In this document: positions 1,034-32,363 of the stretch, in pieces
How positions within the stretch are numbered: the stretch's first letter is position 1
Layout of the letters: each line of letters begins with the position of its first letter
Virus record (IMG/VR): IMGVR_UViG_3300034374_008660
Location: 1-32,517 of that record
Length of the DNA: 32,517 nt
DNA from: a virus
Strand: one strand, 5' to 3'
Translations under genes and position numbers: made by a program
The notes under the pieces: generated by a model
Told to the model about the DNA's origin: nothing
What the model saw: the letters and a program-made list of their open reading frames with translations, nothing else
Databases searched by the model: none

Positions 1034-2362
1034 ATGTACATTCGTTACGTCAATGATTTGGGTAACGGGCATTCTGGTTATGCCACGATTGCATCAGGTA
1101 TTCCTATCCAAACAACAGGTACTGACTCTATCGCAGTAACATCATCTGATGTAAATGGAATTGGTGTTCGTCCTGCAACAGTAGCAGGTGATGCATTTGG
1201 AAGGCTCAGGGTATCAAACCCATATACATTATTTGACTCATCTCAACGCTATCATGATAACGGATTGTGGGCTACATCAACTGGTGTAAGCGGAGCCGCA
1301 ACCTTTAATGCAGACCAAGGTCTAGTTGACATGACTCTTGGTACTACATCAGGTGATTTTGTATTACGTGAAACTTATAAAGTGTTTCCGTACCAGCCTG
1401 GTAAATCACTTCTGACAATGAATACATTTGTCATGGAGTCTGGTCAAGAAAACCAACGGCAACGTGTTGGTTACTTCTCTTCAAGCAACGGTATCTTTAT
1501 TGAGCAAAGCGGAGTAGCGTCACCTGCAATCGTAAAGCGTTCATCAGTATCTGGTTCTGTTGTTGATACCAGAATTGAGCAAGGAGATTGGAGTATAGAT
1601 ACGCTCCAAGGCTCTGGGGAATCTGGATATACTTTAGATCTAACCAAAGCTCAAATCTTCTGGGCAGACCTTGAATGGTTGGGTGTTGGTACTGTTAGGG
1701 CTGGCTTTGTTATTGATGGTGAATTTGTACATTGTCATTCATTTCATCATGCAAATAAAATTGAAAGTACTTATATAACAACGGCATCACTGCCATGTCG
1801 TTATGAAATTGAAAACTTAGATACTGTTAGTGCCAGCGGTACATTAAAGCAAATTTGTTCAACAGTATTGTCAGAAGGTGGTTATCAACTTATAGGTGAG
1901 CCACACTCAGTGGCGACACCTATTACATCTCCTTATACTTTATCAAGCAGTGGTGTTAACTATCCCGTTGCATCCATTAGATTAAAGTCAAGTGATTCAG
2001 ATGCAATTGTAATCCCAGTAGGAATTAATGTACTTGCTATTACCAATAACACAAAATACAGGTGGTCAGTTGTTAAAAATGGAACAACTTCTGGAGGTAC
2101 TTGGTCTGATTTAGGTTCAACTTCATCAGTTCAATACAACCTCAGTGGCACATCCTTTAGTGGTGGTAACGTATTAGCTCAAGGCTATGTTGTCGGTTCT
2201 AATCAGGGGTCTACTGCTACTGCTGTAGATCGTACAAACTTGTTTAAATTTCAACTTGAACGTGAGCCTTTTACGCCAACACCTTATGAGTTAACTGTTG
2301 TTGTTAGCGCTGACTCTGACAGTTCTGACTTTGTAGCAGCAATTGATTGGGAAGAAGTTTGA
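1034..2362 (+). CDS. Cyanophage-type virion structural protein
   Basis: A 442-residue protein starting MYIRYVNDLGNGHSGYATIA. The N-terminal third carries a phrase often seen in cyanophage structural proteins (GDAFGRLRVSNPYTLFDSSQ, about residues 53-72). The remainder is a series of beta-strand-like segments, including RRVGYFSSSNGIFIEQSG-type and WADLEWLGVGTVRAGFVIDG segments that suggest a beta-sandwich of lectin or fibre type. There is no membrane segment or catalytic motif. It opens a plus-strand run with the Dps-like gene 27 bases downstream. The start is the ATG at 1034; an ATG at 1026 is in another frame. There is no strong Shine-Dalgarno sequence, which is common in cyanophages. Surface or fibre function is inferred. 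Confidence 0.75.
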   Translation: MYIRYVNDLGNGHSGYATIASGIPIQTTGTDSIAVTSSDVNGIGVRPATVAGDAFGRLRVSNPYTLFDSSQRYHDNGLWATSTGVSGAATFNADQGLVDMTLGTTSGDFVLRETYKVFPYQPGKSLLTMNTFVMESGQENQRQRVGYFSSSNGIFIEQSGVASPAIVKRSSVSGSVVDTRIEQGDWSIDTLQGSGESGYTLDLTKAQIFWADLEWLGVGTVRAGFVIDGEFVHCHSFHHANKIESTYITTASLPCRYEIENLDTVSASGTLKQICSTVLSEGGYQLIGEPHSVATPITSPYTLSSSGVNYPVASIRLKSSDSDAIVIPVGINVLAITNNTKYRWSVVKNGTTSGGTWSDLGSTSSVQYNLSGTSFSGGNVLAQGYVVGSNQGSTATAVDRTNLFKFQLEREPFTPTPYELTVVVSADSDSSDFVAAIDWEEV

Positions 2363-2389: not shown

Positions 2390-2935
2390 ATGTATACTCC
2401 TGCACCAGGTATGCAACTCGCTGATGTTGCCTTGAAGCAACCTGAGGAAGCTGCAAGTAAACCCAAAGCATCATTAAAACAAAAGCCTAAAACAAATCTT
2501 GATCAATTCATTCGTGAATTAACTGGTCTTGCTTCGTATATGAATGAGCTTAGGCTCCAGGCTCACTTAATTCATTTCAATTACGAGGCAGGTAATTTTC
2601 TTGGGGTGCATAAATTTCTTAAGAAACAATATCTTGCCCATGAAGAACACTTTGATCGCATCGGTGAACTAATCCGTTCTATGGATTATTTTTTACCTAT
2701 GTGTTCAGAAGGACTGCGTGAAGCATGTCCTTCGTTTAAACATGTGAAGAAGTACCAGGCAAAAGATATGTTGCTTACGTATCTAAGTAACCTGGAAGAT
2801 CTTGGTATGGCAACTAAAAAAACTGAGGCTGCTGCTGCCAAAATCAAAGCTATTGACGTTCAGAACTATCTCAGTGAGTTGTGTGAACACGCATTTAAAT
2901 CCGCTTGGATGGTAAAGGCATCTTTAAGAGGCTGA
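2390..2935 (+). CDS. dps-like: Dps-like ferritin-family protein (miniferritin)
   Basis: A 181-residue four-helix protein. Residues 37-178 fit the Dps fold: HFNYEAGNFLGVH (62-74) places His62 and His74 exactly 12 residues apart, as in the Dps ferroxidase site. Asp89 and Glu93 follow at +15 and +19 from the second His, matching the D58/E62 pair of Listeria Dps. The C-terminal helix ends KSAWMVKASL, close to the family's usual KTAWMLRA ending. The ligand normally at +4 from the second His (Asp) is Lys78, so metal binding may be altered. The first 35 residues are Lys- and Pro-rich (KPKASLKQKPK), like the DNA-binding tails of some Dps proteins. Dps normally assembles as a 12-mer that oxidises and stores iron and coats DNA. 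Here it lies between a virion gene and two small genes, so it could protect phage or host DNA or be packaged. Family assignment is fairly firm; role is inference. Confidence 0.8.
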   Translation: MYTPAPGMQLADVALKQPEEAASKPKASLKQKPKTNLDQFIRELTGLASYMNELRLQAHLIHFNYEAGNFLGVHKFLKKQYLAHEEHFDRIGELIRSMDYFLPMCSEGLREACPSFKHVKKYQAKDMLLTYLSNLEDLGMATKKTEAAAAKIKAIDVQNYLSELCEHAFKSAWMVKASLRG

Positions 2936-16670: not shown

Positions 16671-16829
16671 TCAGTTGACAGGCTGGTACCACCAAACACA
16701 ACCATTCTGATTTTCAATTGCTTTACGTAAGGCATAAGCCTCATCCTTTGAAAGGGTGAGGCATTTCCTTTCGTCTTTCAATTCATAACAGACATTTACA
16801 TTGATGTCTGGATTTTTTGTTACTTTCAT
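16671..16829 (-). CDS. Small protein coupled to the endolysin
   Basis: A 52-residue protein starting MKVTKNPDINVNVCYELKDE, with two Cys in a compact beta/alpha pattern and a Trp-rich end (CVWWYQPVN). The ATG at 16829 overlaps the endolysin stop in an ATGA, which decides this start over a longer upstream frame that would run into endolysin codons. It ends directly against the holin-like gene. Its role is unknown; coupling to the endolysin suggests a lysis accessory. Confidence 0.6.
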   Translation of the reverse strand: MKVTKNPDINVNVCYELKDERKCLTLSKDEAYALRKAIENQNGCVWWYQPVN

Positions 16830-17923
16830 GGCTTGACGGCTAAGTACCACCCGGTTGACTTTCCTTCGACTTCCCAACGGCGTAACCAATTCTTGCGGCT
16901 GTATTTTACCTTAACGCCACGCTTGGCTTCGGTAGAAACGTAACCACCGTTAATAAGGTCAGCTTCACCGTATGGATCATTCATGATGATGTGATCCTTA
17001 TCGAATCCAATGCAGCATGTCCAATGCCCACCCCCTTTTGGTGCGCTAGCAGATCCGTAATGCAACCAACCAACTGCAAAAGGGTGGCCCTCTTTGATTT
17101 GATTTTCAAGAAGCTCTGTATTTCCCTTGGTACCAAACCACGCTGTCAGTCCCAGGTGCTGCAGGGCTTTTACCTGAGCTGTTGATGCTGTGCTGTCACC
17201 AAACTTTGCACGGATTTTATTATACTCATCATCCGTATCAACCAAGCCGTAGTAGGCAGCAATCATTGCACAACTAGATGAGAAACATTCTCGATAGCCA
17301 TAACCACTTTGGTTATCTAGCTGATAAAAATACGGAACGTTTAAGACTTTACCACCAGGGGGATTTGCTGTGCATTCACGATCCATGATCTGCATCAACT
17401 TATCTGCATAATCAGGATCGGTTGCATAGCCTTCCTTTACAAGAAGTTTGGCGCACTCATTTCGATTGGCTGCACGGTTAACACCCTGGTAACCATCAAA
17501 ATCTTTATACCAGCGATTGACTAGGTATTGAACGCAAGAATAAAGATCAGGGAAATTAATAAAGCCATCTTTAATGGTGACCCATTGCCCATCGATATAT
17601 TCTTGGGTGTCAACAACGGTACCATCTTTACCTTTCAAGTTAAAATAATTATGCTTACCTGAGACATGCTTACCCCATCCAGATTCAAGTGCCCATTGCG
17701 CTGCAACAACTTCTGGAAATTTTGCACCAGCATCTGATGCCGCTTGCCGGATCCCATTCCATGTGTTTTGATACACGGGTTTGGGATCTACAGCAGAACG
17801 ATAAAGATCAGCAAACTCATCAAGTTGTTCTTTTGTCAGTTGCTCTTGTAAATAATTCCAAGCAGCAAGTTGGTGGGGCAGTTCCTTATAGTACTTTGCC
17901 GCATCGGTTAGCTTAATTGTCAT
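16826..17923 (-). CDS. Two-domain endolysin: glucosaminidase plus C39-type peptidase
   Basis: A 365-residue protein. Residues 15-45 are a helical segment (WNYLQEQLTKEQLDEFADLY). Residues 55-185 are a flagellar-muramidase/glucosaminidase-like domain with Glu80 in AAQWALESGWGKH as the catalytic acid, followed by KHNYFNLKG. Residues 195-330 look like a C39-family cysteine peptidase: Cys213 in RECFSSSCAM is the probable nucleophile, His300 in GGGHWTCCIG and Asp316 in MNDPYGE complete the triad. It would cut both glycan and peptide parts of the wall. It is coupled downstream (ATGA) to a small gene and faces the holin-like gene. Confidence 0.85.
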   Translation of the reverse strand: MTIKLTDAAKYYKELPHQLAAWNYLQEQLTKEQLDEFADLYRSAVDPKPVYQNTWNGIRQAASDAGAKFPEVVAAQWALESGWGKHVSGKHNYFNLKGKDGTVVDTQEYIDGQWVTIKDGFINFPDLYSCVQYLVNRWYKDFDGYQGVNRAANRNECAKLLVKEGYATDPDYADKLMQIMDRECTANPPGGKVLNVPYFYQLDNQSGYGYRECFSSSCAMIAAYYGLVDTDDEYNKIRAKFGDSTASTAQVKALQHLGLTAWFGTKGNTELLENQIKEGHPFAVGWLHYGSASAPKGGGHWTCCIGFDKDHIIMNDPYGEADLINGGYVSTEAKRGVKVKYSRKNWLRRWEVEGKSTGWYLAVKP

Positions 17924-18422: not shown

Positions 18423-18585
18423 GAAATTTTGCAGGCAATACGTACTCGTTGATTATTCTACCAGTGTCGGCGTACCTGAGCCAACCATAAAAAGATCCGA
18501 TGACATGGCGCAGGCTTACTGCTTCGTTCAATGTCATTCGCTTAGTTTCTTGGCTTAATTTGCGGCGTACGCGAGGCGAGCCCCG
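18367..18585 (-). pseudogene. Possible C-terminal remnant of a DGR-type reverse transcriptase
   Basis: An open minus-strand frame (no stop from 18585 to 18367, with an ATG at 18537) runs from the 3' end of the tail-fibre gene into the next gene. From the ATG it encodes 56 residues starting MTLNEAVSLRHVIGSFYGWL. Its segment S15-x2-G18-x3-Y22-A23-D24-T25-x2-I28 aligns with SWSGHAQWADTHNL near the C-terminus of the Bordetella phage BPP-1 DGR reverse transcriptase, as I recall that sequence. The basic SPRVRRKL just upstream also fits an RT thumb. Everything N-terminal to this, including the catalytic YxDD core, is missing. It may be a deletion remnant, an expressed small protein, or a coincidence. 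It overlaps both neighbours in other frames. Confidence 0.4.
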
Positions 18586-20210
18586 TTATTTTCTTGGCTG
18601 GAGATCGATGAATTGTTCAGAAGCAAGCAGAAGGCCCCATTCCACTGACCCAACTGGGCATCGCCCCCCACACGGGCTACACGCCAATTGACGCCAGTCC
18701 AGAAGGGATCACCCAGATACGTCGTGCTGCTACCTCCTGGCCCACCTGCAGGCAGGAACACATCAGCAAGTGGTTGCAGTTCTTTTTGATAAGAGGCATA
18801 GCCAGAGGCCACTTGAGCATAAAACTCATAACCATCGGATGTATCATCATCAAATGCAGTTTGATCGTTGGTCAGATAAACCACCCGTTCGTAAATATTG
18901 ATGCCATCAACAAAATACCAAGCGCGACCATATAGATTTTCAATACCGCGATATGCCATATAATCATCGACATGGGATACATTGTCAGTGCTGTTGACGC
19001 TATGGTTGCCGTCGCCGTCACTTTGACCGGTTGTTACCCCATATGTCCCACCAGTGTCAGATCCATTACCAATAGCTCGTTGGGAGTTGTAATCTTGGTA
19101 CTCGCAAACCAGCAATGTTTGAATTGCAGCTAACTCCAAATAAGACAACACATGCCAGCCAGTGCCACGGGCTTCTGCTTCGGTGCGGAACGTAGCACGA
19201 GTTTTACTGCGGGTATTTGTTTGACCGCTAACACTAGAACTAGTTCCAGAATCATCATAGGTTTGGTATGCACCAATGTAAAAAGCATCTTTGTAACTAC
19301 CGTCAGTTTTAATAAATGCTGGATGAGGCTGGAAACCTTGTGCAATTAAGGCATCACTGCAGCCCAGTTTCACTTCACGAGTGTGTACACCATTCAAGAA
19401 GCCATAACGCACGCTGAATGCTGGGATTTCAACAACAACTTGGCCATCAGTACCAGTCAAATCACTTGATACTGTGCCAGCAGCAGGTGTGGCCGTGGTC
19501 GTTGCCGCAATGCATTCCCACAAATAGCCACTATGGGTAACACGTTGACCGAGGGTAAAGGTACCAGCGGCCCATGCTGGAACACCAACACGTAGCAGTG
19601 AGTTCGTGCTTTCGCTAATTGTGCCGGTGTAAGCGGTATCAAGTGCTTCGGTTTCTACAATGCGAAGCCAGTCACCAGATTTTAGATCGCTATCATCAGC
19701 ATCAAGATAATACTGAACAACACCAGAATCATTGATTACGCAACGACGAATTCGTGATTGAACATCAATATCAACAGTGCCGGTCAGATCACTGGTTTTA
19801 ATACTGGTTCCAAGGAAGTAAAGACCGTAGGTGTCATCATCATGATCCCAGCCAAACACTCCTGATGAAGTAATTTGTTCCCAAGAAGGAGGTGAACCAG
19901 AACCATTAGAAACAAGCACTTGACCAGCGGTCCCAAAATTAGAACCACTAACACCCAATGCTCCATTTACTTGTATTTCAGATTGAAAAATCCCAGATAC
20001 AAAAGTTGCTGTTATACCAGTGACAGTAACTCCTGTTACTGAAGTAAAGCCTGCAGAATCACCTGTAATTACATTTCCAGAAATTACTCCTGTGACTTGA
20101 ACAGCACCACTAAAAACTGGGTTTTTAACTAAACCAGATATTGATACAGTTGTATCAGAACCTCCATTGGTAAAAGTAACTGAATCAACCCTTAGTTCAC
20201 CGTAAGCCAT
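18555..20210 (-). CDS. Tail fibre with C-type-lectin-like receptor-binding tip
   Basis: A 551-residue protein. The first 150 residues are beta-repeat fibre sequence (GVISGNVITGDSAGFTSVTG), including INGALGV-type phrases and a GSGSPPSWEQI junction. The middle contains an extended beta-rich region. The C-terminal part (about 320-551) has TWWHVLSYLELAA-like helical text, then PFWTGVNWRVARVGGDAQLG and an ending NNGARLAY. This fits the formylglycine-enzyme/C-type-lectin fold seen in tail-fibre tips and DGR variable proteins. It would bind the host surface. It is preceded on the same strand by a small tail gene (20246-20530) and followed by the RT-like remnant and an accessory gene. The start is ATG at 20210. 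Confidence 0.8.
   Translation of the reverse strand: MAYGELRVDSVTFTNGGSDTTVSISGLVKNPVFSGAVQVTGVISGNVITGDSAGFTSVTGVTVTGITATFVSGIFQSEIQVNGALGVSGSNFGTAGQVLVSNGSGSPPSWEQITSSGVFGWDHDDDTYGLYFLGTSIKTSDLTGTVDIDVQSRIRRCVINDSGVVQYYLDADDSDLKSGDWLRIVETEALDTAYTGTISESTNSLLRVGVPAWAAGTFTLGQRVTHSGYLWECIAATTTATPAAGTVSSDLTGTDGQVVVEIPAFSVRYGFLNGVHTREVKLGCSDALIAQGFQPHPAFIKTDGSYKDAFYIGAYQTYDDSGTSSSVSGQTNTRSKTRATFRTEAEARGTGWHVLSYLELAAIQTLLVCEYQDYNSQRAIGNGSDTGGTYGVTTGQSDGDGNHSVNSTDNVSHVDDYMAYRGIENLYGRAWYFVDGINIYERVVYLTNDQTAFDDDTSDGYEFYAQVASGYASYQKELQPLADVFLPAGGPGGSSTTYLGDPFWTGVNWRVARVGGDAQLGQWNGAFCLLLNNSSISSQENNGARLAYAAN
18558..18671 (-). other. Candidate DGR variable region (VR-like) at the fibre tip
   Basis: The last 37 codons of the tail-fibre gene align residue for residue in length with typical DGR variable tips of the GGNWNNG...GAFxLNLNN...GARLA type: GG (515-516), G521, GAF (525-527), L529, L531-N-N, and GARLAY near the end. 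Positions that are Asn in template-coded versions are varied here (Asp, Gln, Leu, Cys). No template repeat copy was found in the window. Confidence 0.4.
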
Positions 20211-24844: not shown

Positions 24845-25480
24845 TTACTCCCATGACTTGTAATTTGAATCCTCGTCGGCAAGATGAAACTGATTATTGA
24901 ACTCAGCTAGTACATATGGATTAATCTGATTTTCCAGATTTCTGATTGCCCTGATTTCATGGGGTGTTGCAGAATACATCCTGAATGCTTTCAGTAGTAC
25001 TTCTCCTGAGGTCCATGCATTGGCATTCATCTCAGATAAGAATAGACGTACTTCTTCTCTGCGTCGCTCCACAAGGTTACCAATGACCTTGTGTTGGTTA
25101 TCAAAAACCCAATGCGTCATGGCCTCTGCTGCTGAAATCCATTCTTCTTTGTCACAGTAATCGATGATGTCACTGTAAAGAAAAGGATCCCAACCAATTG
25201 AGTGTATGAAGGACACCAGGGCTTCCTCCATAGAGTGATCTAGCCCCAAGTTGAGTTGTCTTAGATCATCTGCAATGACTTGAACTTCTTTCAAAAGATA
25301 TTCAGCCGCCTTCTGCTTGGTACAACAATTACCCTGCTTCACTGGTGAACCATCAGGATAAAACTGAGTACCGTAGCCTACGCTATAAGGTTCTGCACCA
25401 GTCTCTGGATCGGGATATGCCCGTTCATTAAACCCCTCATAGAGCTTGATAAGTTTAATTGCCCGTGAGTAATCGGACAT
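24845..25480 (-). CDS. GH24 (T4-type) lysozyme
   Basis: A 211-residue protein. IKLYEGFNERAYPDPETG (11-28) with Glu15 and Asp24, then SVGYGTQ (33-39) with Thr38, gives the T4 lysozyme E-D-T catalytic set. AAEYLLKEV and a helical core up to FIHSIGWDPF follow the family pattern. A C-terminal extension of about 60 residues (AFRMYSATPHEIRAI) is unusual. It would cut peptidoglycan between MurNAc and GlcNAc. It is far from the holin-like gene, so it may be tail-associated or an extra endolysin. It is followed by the 98-residue gene on the same strand. Confidence 0.85.
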   Translation of the reverse strand: MSDYSRAIKLIKLYEGFNERAYPDPETGAEPYSVGYGTQFYPDGSPVKQGNCCTKQKAAEYLLKEVQVIADDLRQLNLGLDHSMEEALVSFIHSIGWDPFLYSDIIDYCDKEEWISAAEAMTHWVFDNQHKVIGNLVERRREEVRLFLSEMNANAWTSGEVLLKAFRMYSATPHEIRAIRNLENQINPYVLAEFNNQFHLADEDSNYKSWE

Positions 25481-31655: not shown

Positions 31656-32363
31656 TTATTGGAACAGCTGAGGCATAAGCATAGGCATAAAATTTCCTGC
31701 AAGTGGTTGAAAGAATCTGCTCGTCAATAAAGTCGCTGGGTTTTGTCTTGGTTTAAACAAGTTCCCAAGCATCATCATTTTTGTAAGATTTGATGAATTA
31801 TCCCTAGTGGTTGCTTGAGTTGCTTGAGTTGCTTGTGGTTGCTGTGTACTTGTAGTATCTACAGGAGTTACTGCTTGCTGTCCATACACTTTTTGGATAT
31901 CAGCAAGTTTTTTTACAGGTTGACCATAAAAACTTACTCCCTTTTCTGTTGGAAAAGATGCCCATTCTGGAGCCAGTCTTGCAGCAACTCTAGGACTAAG
32001 GCCTTCTTTTTCTAATGTTGCAAGACCACCAATTGGAAGCAAACGATCTCGAACCAACTTTAATGCTCCAAGGTCTTGCGCTTCTGGTCCAAAATCTTTT
32101 AAATTTAATCCAGAAGCAACCATGTTCCAAGTAGGGGGCAAAAACTGATAGGCGCCTGCAGCAGCACTGCTGTATCTACCCTTACTAACTACAGTGTCTG
32201 GATGGCGGCTTAAATCGTTAAATGTTCCTCCGCCAAACAGTATCCTATAAGGATCCTTGCCAAGATTTGTTCCTTCTGCGTAACGAATAGAGCGCAGTAT
32301 GTTTTGTCCAAAAGGACTAGAACGCGCCCGTCTTAATATATTTATCTCTCTGGGAGATGCCAT
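31656..32363 (-). CDS. Virion-associated muramidase (phage lysozyme-like)
   Basis: A 235-residue protein. ILRSIRYAEGTNLG (22-35) with Glu30 as the likely catalytic acid, then FGGGTFND, LSRHPD and YSSAAAGAYQFLPPTW (64-79), match the lambda-R/COG4678 muramidase family. EAQDLGAL and APEWASFP follow. The last 60 residues are Gln/Thr-rich (TQQPQATQATQATT) then a hydrophobic FLP-type end, unlike stand-alone endolysins. With virion genes around it, a tail-tip lysozyme that opens the wall during DNA ejection is likely. It starts one base after the small gene's stop. Confidence 0.8.
   Translation of the reverse strand: MASPREINILRRARSSPFGQNILRSIRYAEGTNLGKDPYRILFGGGTFNDLSRHPDTVVSKGRYSSAAAGAYQFLPPTWNMVASGLNLKDFGPEAQDLGALKLVRDRLLPIGGLATLEKEGLSPRVAARLAPEWASFPTEKGVSFYGQPVKKLADIQKVYGQQAVTPVDTTSTQQPQATQATQATTRDNSSNLTKMMMLGNLFKPRQNPATLLTSRFFQPLAGNFMPMLMPQLFQ

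Follow-up and report, generated by a model that had tools for sequence, protein, structure and literature searches.

Genes for Dps-type miniferritins have been described in the Lactobacillus plantarum phages Semele and LP65 (PMC6669764) and in gut phages of the Gratiaviridae and Flandersviridae (PMC8008677), and protection against oxidative stress was proposed in both cases, but these lineages are unrelated to the phage analysed here. The closer precedent is Synechococcus phage S-EIV1, which originates from freshwater (an Arctic lake) and whose protein AHV82153, annotated as a 'DNA-binding ferritin-like protein', is an orthologue of the Dps encoded in the window, with 54% identity over 99% of the length. 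The window is the whole stretch of DNA that was analysed, a 32,517-base IMG/VR virus record from an S-EIV1-like phage. The initial annotation had not recognized a miniferritin as a known phage gene, a view that the annotated S-EIV1 protein and the published phage Dps proteins contradict. A literature search found no dedicated study of Dps in cyanophages or of phage Dps with prohead protease. Marine genomes of S-EIV1-like phages have also been reported to carry hli and ptoX (PMC5332604).

In canonical Dps proteins, an Asp or Glu at position 67 joins site B of the ferroxidase centre via water, whereas Asn67 of NpDps4 is a non-ligand and iron is nonetheless oxidised with O2; TeDpsA has a centre of the NpDps4 kind (PMC6675082).

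A Dps miniferritin in an S-EIV1-like phage

The translated dps ORF (Table 1) matched the Pfam Ferritin family PF00210 at 36.6 bits (E 5e-9), above the curated cut-off of 24.5 bits, and PHROG 3636, labelled DNA binding protein, at E 2e-25. Searching PDB chains with phmmer returned weak Dps and bacterioferritin-type matches (best E 1e-4), while a family profile matched Dps proteins among the PDB sequences at up to E 2e-12 (C. jejuni miniferritin). The weak single-sequence matches combined with strong profile matches indicate that the homology is remote but secure. Scores against two cellular Dps equivalog models fell short of their cut-offs, at 17.9 bits versus 300 for NCBIfam NF052461 (cyanobacterial DpsA) and 17.5 bits versus 114 for NF006975. 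Both full-length homology and a fixed place in S-EIV1-like phages were found, assigning the protein to the S-EIV1-type phage Dps family (PHROG 3636). The dN/dS ratio was approximately 0.06-0.07 between the window gene and its closest relatives and 0.02-0.12 among other family members, values that show purifying selection acting on the coding sequence.

An AlphaFold2 monomer model, derived from an input alignment of 47 rows with the S-EIV1 row left out, had a mean pLDDT of 84.7, with residues 36-180 mostly confident and residues 8-29 below 50. DSSP assigned helices to residues 36-64, 70-97, 106-112, 124-151 and 155-180 of the model, consistent with the Dps layout of a four-helix bundle with a BC-loop helix and without a fifth C-terminal helix. 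VIA-align superposed the model on MrgA (2chp) with a Z of 22.2 and an rmsd of 1.5 A over 147 residues, and on T. elongatus Dps (2c41) with a Z of 22.1; the Foldseek and VIA-align matches were almost exclusively Dps proteins and close dodecameric relatives. The proposal of a Dps-like ferritin with a four-helix-bundle fold, made in the initial annotation, is therefore borne out by Pfam, PHROG and PDB-profile matches above background and by a confident model. Taken together, sequence and model confirm that the window encodes a Dps miniferritin of an S-EIV1-like cyanophage.

Table 1. Positions of dps, its predicted functional residues and segments, and associated genes. Coordinates refer to the window unless preceded by the handle of another phage sequence.
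Feature	Position	Strand	Basis or remark
Virion structural protein gene (PHROG 1645)	1034..2362	+	PHROG 1645, E 3e-125; 27 nt upstream of dps, same strand
dps gene	2390..2935	+	ATG start, 181 aa; Dps-type miniferritin, S-EIV1 phage family (PHROG 3636)
Disordered tail with MYTPAPG motif and Lys-rich stretch, net +3	2390..2494 (codons 1-35)	+	Model pLDDT, family tail charges
His62, predicted ferroxidase ligand (place of E. coli H51)	2573..2575	+	Invariant, 96/96 and 36/36
His74, predicted ferroxidase ligand (place of E. coli H63)	2609..2611	+	Invariant, 96/96 and 36/36
Lys78, at usual Asp/Glu ligand place (position 67)	2621..2623	+	Lys/Gly across family
Asp89, predicted ferroxidase ligand (position 78; canonical Asp, not cyanobacterial His)	2654..2656	+	Invariant, 96/96 and 36/36
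Glu93, predicted ferroxidase ligand (position 82)	2666..2668	+	Invariant, 96/96 and 36/36
Short helix in BC loop, typical of Dps	2705..2725 (codons 106-112)	+	DSSP of model
Variable-slot genes	L109:6528-8957, L090:5872-6792, L122:6477-8543, L132:6555-8213, L001:18552-20021, others		No Pfam/PHROG match except one weak PCP_red

Predicted ferroxidase centre and N-terminal tail

The intersubunit ligand set of E. coli Dps (H51, H63, D78 and E82) is present in the window protein as H62, H74, D89 and E93. Checking the translation against the DNA upheld the residue pattern reported in the initial annotation, namely His62 and His74 spaced 12 apart, Asp89 and Glu93 at +15 and +19 from His74, and a KxAWM ending, here K170-S-A-W173-M174 within the terminal FKSAWMVK. 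The same annotation had pointed to Lys78, four residues after His74, in place of the usual Asp; this substitution is real, and Lys or Gly occupies the place throughout the family. Across 96 distinct sequences, residue 78 is Lys in 76 and Gly in 20, and Asp or Glu in none. Since a bias towards Lys at this residue could stem from the search peptide HKFLKKQY, the count was redone on a primase-anchored set, i.e., phages gathered via their primase gene and not via dps (n = 36), in which residue 78 is Lys in 32 and Gly in 4 and all four ligands are present in every sequence. Lys78 as an invariant signature was ruled out by the sequences with Gly, that of S-EIV1 among them. Further residues invariant in the 96 sequences are Q57, H59, E66, Q80, Y81, H84, D99, C105 and W173; four of them (His59, Glu66, His84 and Cys105) show no variation wherever sequences cover them and lie outside the known ferroxidase ligands.

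The Asp or Glu at position 67 that marks the canonical-centre subclass is replaced by Lys or Gly in all sequences, so the phage centre is not canonical, and because Asp is retained at position 78 (Asp89, invariant), a His-type centre of the cyanobacterial kind was ruled out as well. If the Met/Phe rule of PMC6675082 is applied, Met174 of the window Dps falls at the place taken as position 164, and there is no His164. Judged from the aligned sequences, the whole phage family is without one of the usual metal-binding residues and keeps the other four. In the simplest reading, such a centre would still act as a ferroxidase, though with site B weakened. Should the Lys point towards the metals, binding of the two irons could suffer, and another role may have been adopted by the family.

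A Lys-rich tail had also been noted, and residues 1-35 of the window Dps do contain 6 Lys and 3 acidic residues, a real but modest enrichment; as a family trait the feature fails, being restricted to one clade. Most tails of S-EIV1-like sequences start with MYTPGPQ or similar, continue with a linker rich in Pro and Gln and then a KPKAPxKSK-like stretch, and carry a net charge of +2 to +4, while 29 of the 96 distinct sequences have net-negative tails, including the whole of a second group of loci (L022-L056), which is acidic. Since tail charge varies and the ferroxidase site is constant, DNA binding by the tail is a possible clade trait and not a common function of the family. Within the basic-tailed clade, to which the window protein belongs, the tail may bind DNA.

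Distribution and gene surroundings

The window and S-EIV1 have in common a run of genes for an exonuclease, an 880-aa primase-polymerase, a SAM decarboxylase and a glycosyltransferase, as well as further genes. A 515-aa window protein is 59% identical to its S-EIV1 counterpart and matched nothing else in 50,697 phage records, and a near-identity search of window positions 8000-32517 against phage records returned nothing. The homology to S-EIV1, together with a gene order partly shared with it, agrees with the earlier attribution of the gene to a cyanophage; at the sequence level a cyanophage origin is well supported, with the host itself presumed. In a tblastn search of the phage collection, S-EIV1 was the sole isolate with a relative of the window Dps, and at least 329 stretches in IMG/VR encode relatives. 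In 84,980 cellular genomes, pattern scans, which detect close relatives only, found none, and a plasmid search yielded one insignificant cellular Dps match. Recent capture of a cyanobacterial Dps gene is not supported, given the lack of a close relative in the cellular pattern scans and a DpsA NCBIfam score far below the cut-off. Additional Dps proteins of uncultured phages are present in BFVD; in A0A6J7WPK9, A0A6J7XDU5 and A0A6J7WIS1, Dps-like folds lie within longer proteins named prohead protease, and it is possible that Dps is fused to head-maturation proteins in other phages.

Among records longer than 70 kb gathered via the primase, 11 of 12 carry dps (S-EIV1 counted), and where the gene lies near the primase it always shares the strand of the primase and is located 3-10 kb upstream of it. 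This presence and conserved place indicate that dps is a near-core gene of the lineage and not a stray auxiliary gene. In the second group (L022-L056), dps occupies a different, equally fixed place among structural genes, and most members encode the 515-aa protein family of the window. A small excisionase/HTH-like gene (L037:7630-7893; PHROG 2907, E 1e-3) precedes dps on its strand in this group.

The gene upstream of dps in the window belongs to PHROG 1645, whose homologues are mostly from Synechococcus cyanomyoviruses and also include HMO-2011. In 50 of approximately 95 S-EIV1-like loci, dps is immediately preceded by a PHROG 1645 gene of the same orientation, and the gene order, which the initial annotation had suggested looking for in phage metagenomes, thus recurs in those loci but differs in the second group. 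The two genes are probably co-transcribed. Because the PHROG 1645 gene directly precedes dps, virion association or late expression of Dps is possible, as is its packaging in the virion.

Behind dps is a variable slot, in which a start-stop-overlapping gene of approximately 190-810 aa belongs to a different family from phage to phage (Table 1); at its far end, one and the same small HNH-like gene recurs in convergent orientation. A C-terminal PxGSVAG...GR motif is common to several of the large slot proteins. The slot gene of S-EIV1 (L001 in Table 1, 18555-20021; KJ410740 17153-18619) is annotated as 'sulfate adenylyltransferase', a label without Pfam support at E 0.01, and its sequence resembles other slot proteins. 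Elsewhere in the window, the product of 15757-16473 matches PHROG 3704, labelled ferredoxin (E 1e-91), and its S-EIV1 homologue is annotated PurM; no ferredoxin cysteine cluster was seen by eye, so both labels look doubtful. The 32-kb window also contains three separate endolysin-type genes (16826-17923, 24845-25480 and 31656-32363).

Possible functions and comparison with known Dps proteins

We consider it fairly probable that the phage protein forms a dodecameric ferroxidase cage whose task in the infected cell is to detoxify iron and peroxide, DNA binding being a secondary activity in the basic-tailed clade. Based on knowledge of the family, the four-helix-bundle subunits would assemble into a 12-subunit cage, in which the two His of one subunit and Asp89 and Glu93 of its partner would form an intersubunit ferroxidase centre. 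This centre would oxidise Fe2+ with H2O2 or O2 and the iron would be stored in the cage, removing Fenton chemistry from the infected, illuminated cyanobacterial cell and protecting phage and host DNA. Because the place of the fifth ligand is taken by Lys or Gly, site B is probably weaker, with His74 and Glu93 presumably holding the metal, the arrangement of NpDps4 and TeDpsA, and the basic tail of the window clade may additionally bind DNA. Detoxification is favoured by the profile matches and the confident Dps model, by the purifying selection and near-core status of the gene, and by conservation that resides in the ferroxidase site and not in the charge of the tail; in addition, the active NpDps4 tolerates loss of the position 67 ligand (PMC6675082). 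Moreover, hli and ptoX in S-EIV1-like marine genomes fit the management of photosynthetic redox stress (PMC5332604). Counting against detoxification are the scores far below the cellular Dps equivalog cut-offs and the fact that approximately half of the loci link dps to virion genes, not to known redox genes.

E. coli Dps acts by compacting DNA via its tails, which counts in favour of a similar role here. In such a role, basic disordered tails would condense host or replicating phage DNA against nucleases and radicals, with iron chemistry secondary, and both the Lys-rich disordered tail with its KPKAPxKSK-like stretch and net positive charge in most S-EIV1-like sequences and the DNA binding label of PHROG 3636 are consistent with it. 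We nevertheless regard it as unlikely, as nearly a third of the tails are net negative, those of the entire second group included, while the ferroxidase residues do not change, and protection of DNA without binding is known for some Dps proteins (title of PDB 1o9r).

More doubtful is the proposal that Dps is a virion component, the cage, or its subunits via the N-terminal peptide MYTPGPQ, being packaged in the head or tail to deliver protection or iron. The position of dps directly downstream of the PHROG 1645 gene in about half of the loci points in this direction, as do the location of dps between structural genes and beside a minor-tail-like gene in the second group, the conserved N-terminal peptide with a disordered linker behind it, and the BFVD structure matches to longer proteins named prohead protease. 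In the second group, however, dps lies on the strand opposite the structural genes, the neighbouring tail-like gene of S-EIV1 is likewise on the opposite strand, and the prohead protease names are annotations only. It is less probable still that these elements combine in a phage-specific Dps subfamily with a centre re-tuned by Lys or Gly, which would be borne in the virion via the N-terminal peptide and would deliver an iron- and radical-scavenging cage with the genome. Small-cage ferritins chiefly detoxify, which counts against a function in iron scavenging or storage. Least probable of all, then, is that Dps supplies phage iron proteins such as ptoX in iron-poor water and does not detoxify, for although the conserved ferroxidase site and the ptoX of relatives (PMC5332604) would suit this, relatives are also found in freshwater phages, e.g., S-EIV1.

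With detoxification as the preferred function, the closest comparison is with S-EIV1, whose Dps resembles that of the window in its four ligands, its basic tail and its related gene surroundings, but has Gly instead of Lys at residue 78. The gene after dps encodes a large unrelated protein in S-EIV1, whereas two small ORFs follow in the window, and S-EIV1 has no PHROG 1645 gene directly upstream of dps. The His-type proteins NpDps4 and TeDpsA are similar to the phage proteins in having a non-ligand at position 67 (Asn67 in NpDps4, Lys78 in the window protein), but the phage proteins keep Asp at position 78 (D89), and the residue following their conserved Trp, at the place taken as that of His164, is Met, Phe, Gln or Lys. 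Canonical Dps proteins (Listeria, H. pylori NAP, E. coli and B. subtilis MrgA) and phage Dps have in common the four-helix bundle with a BC helix, the H, H, D and E ligands and the K..W ending, but identity is only about 15-24%, and the fifth ligand is Asp or Glu in contrast to the phage Lys or Gly. Given the phage Dps precedents, what is new here is confined to how widely the family is spread, the near-core position of its gene and the Lys/Gly variant of the metal site. These results imply that miniferritins are not occasional passengers in this widespread lineage of aquatic phages but belong to its near-core genes, and with S-EIV1 as a cultured member, why a phage of an oxygenic phototroph needs an iron and peroxide cage of its own is directly testable. 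The family-wide Lys or Gly, set against the Asp or Glu of canonical Dps, further provides a clear biochemical prediction on a Dps centre lacking the fifth ligand.
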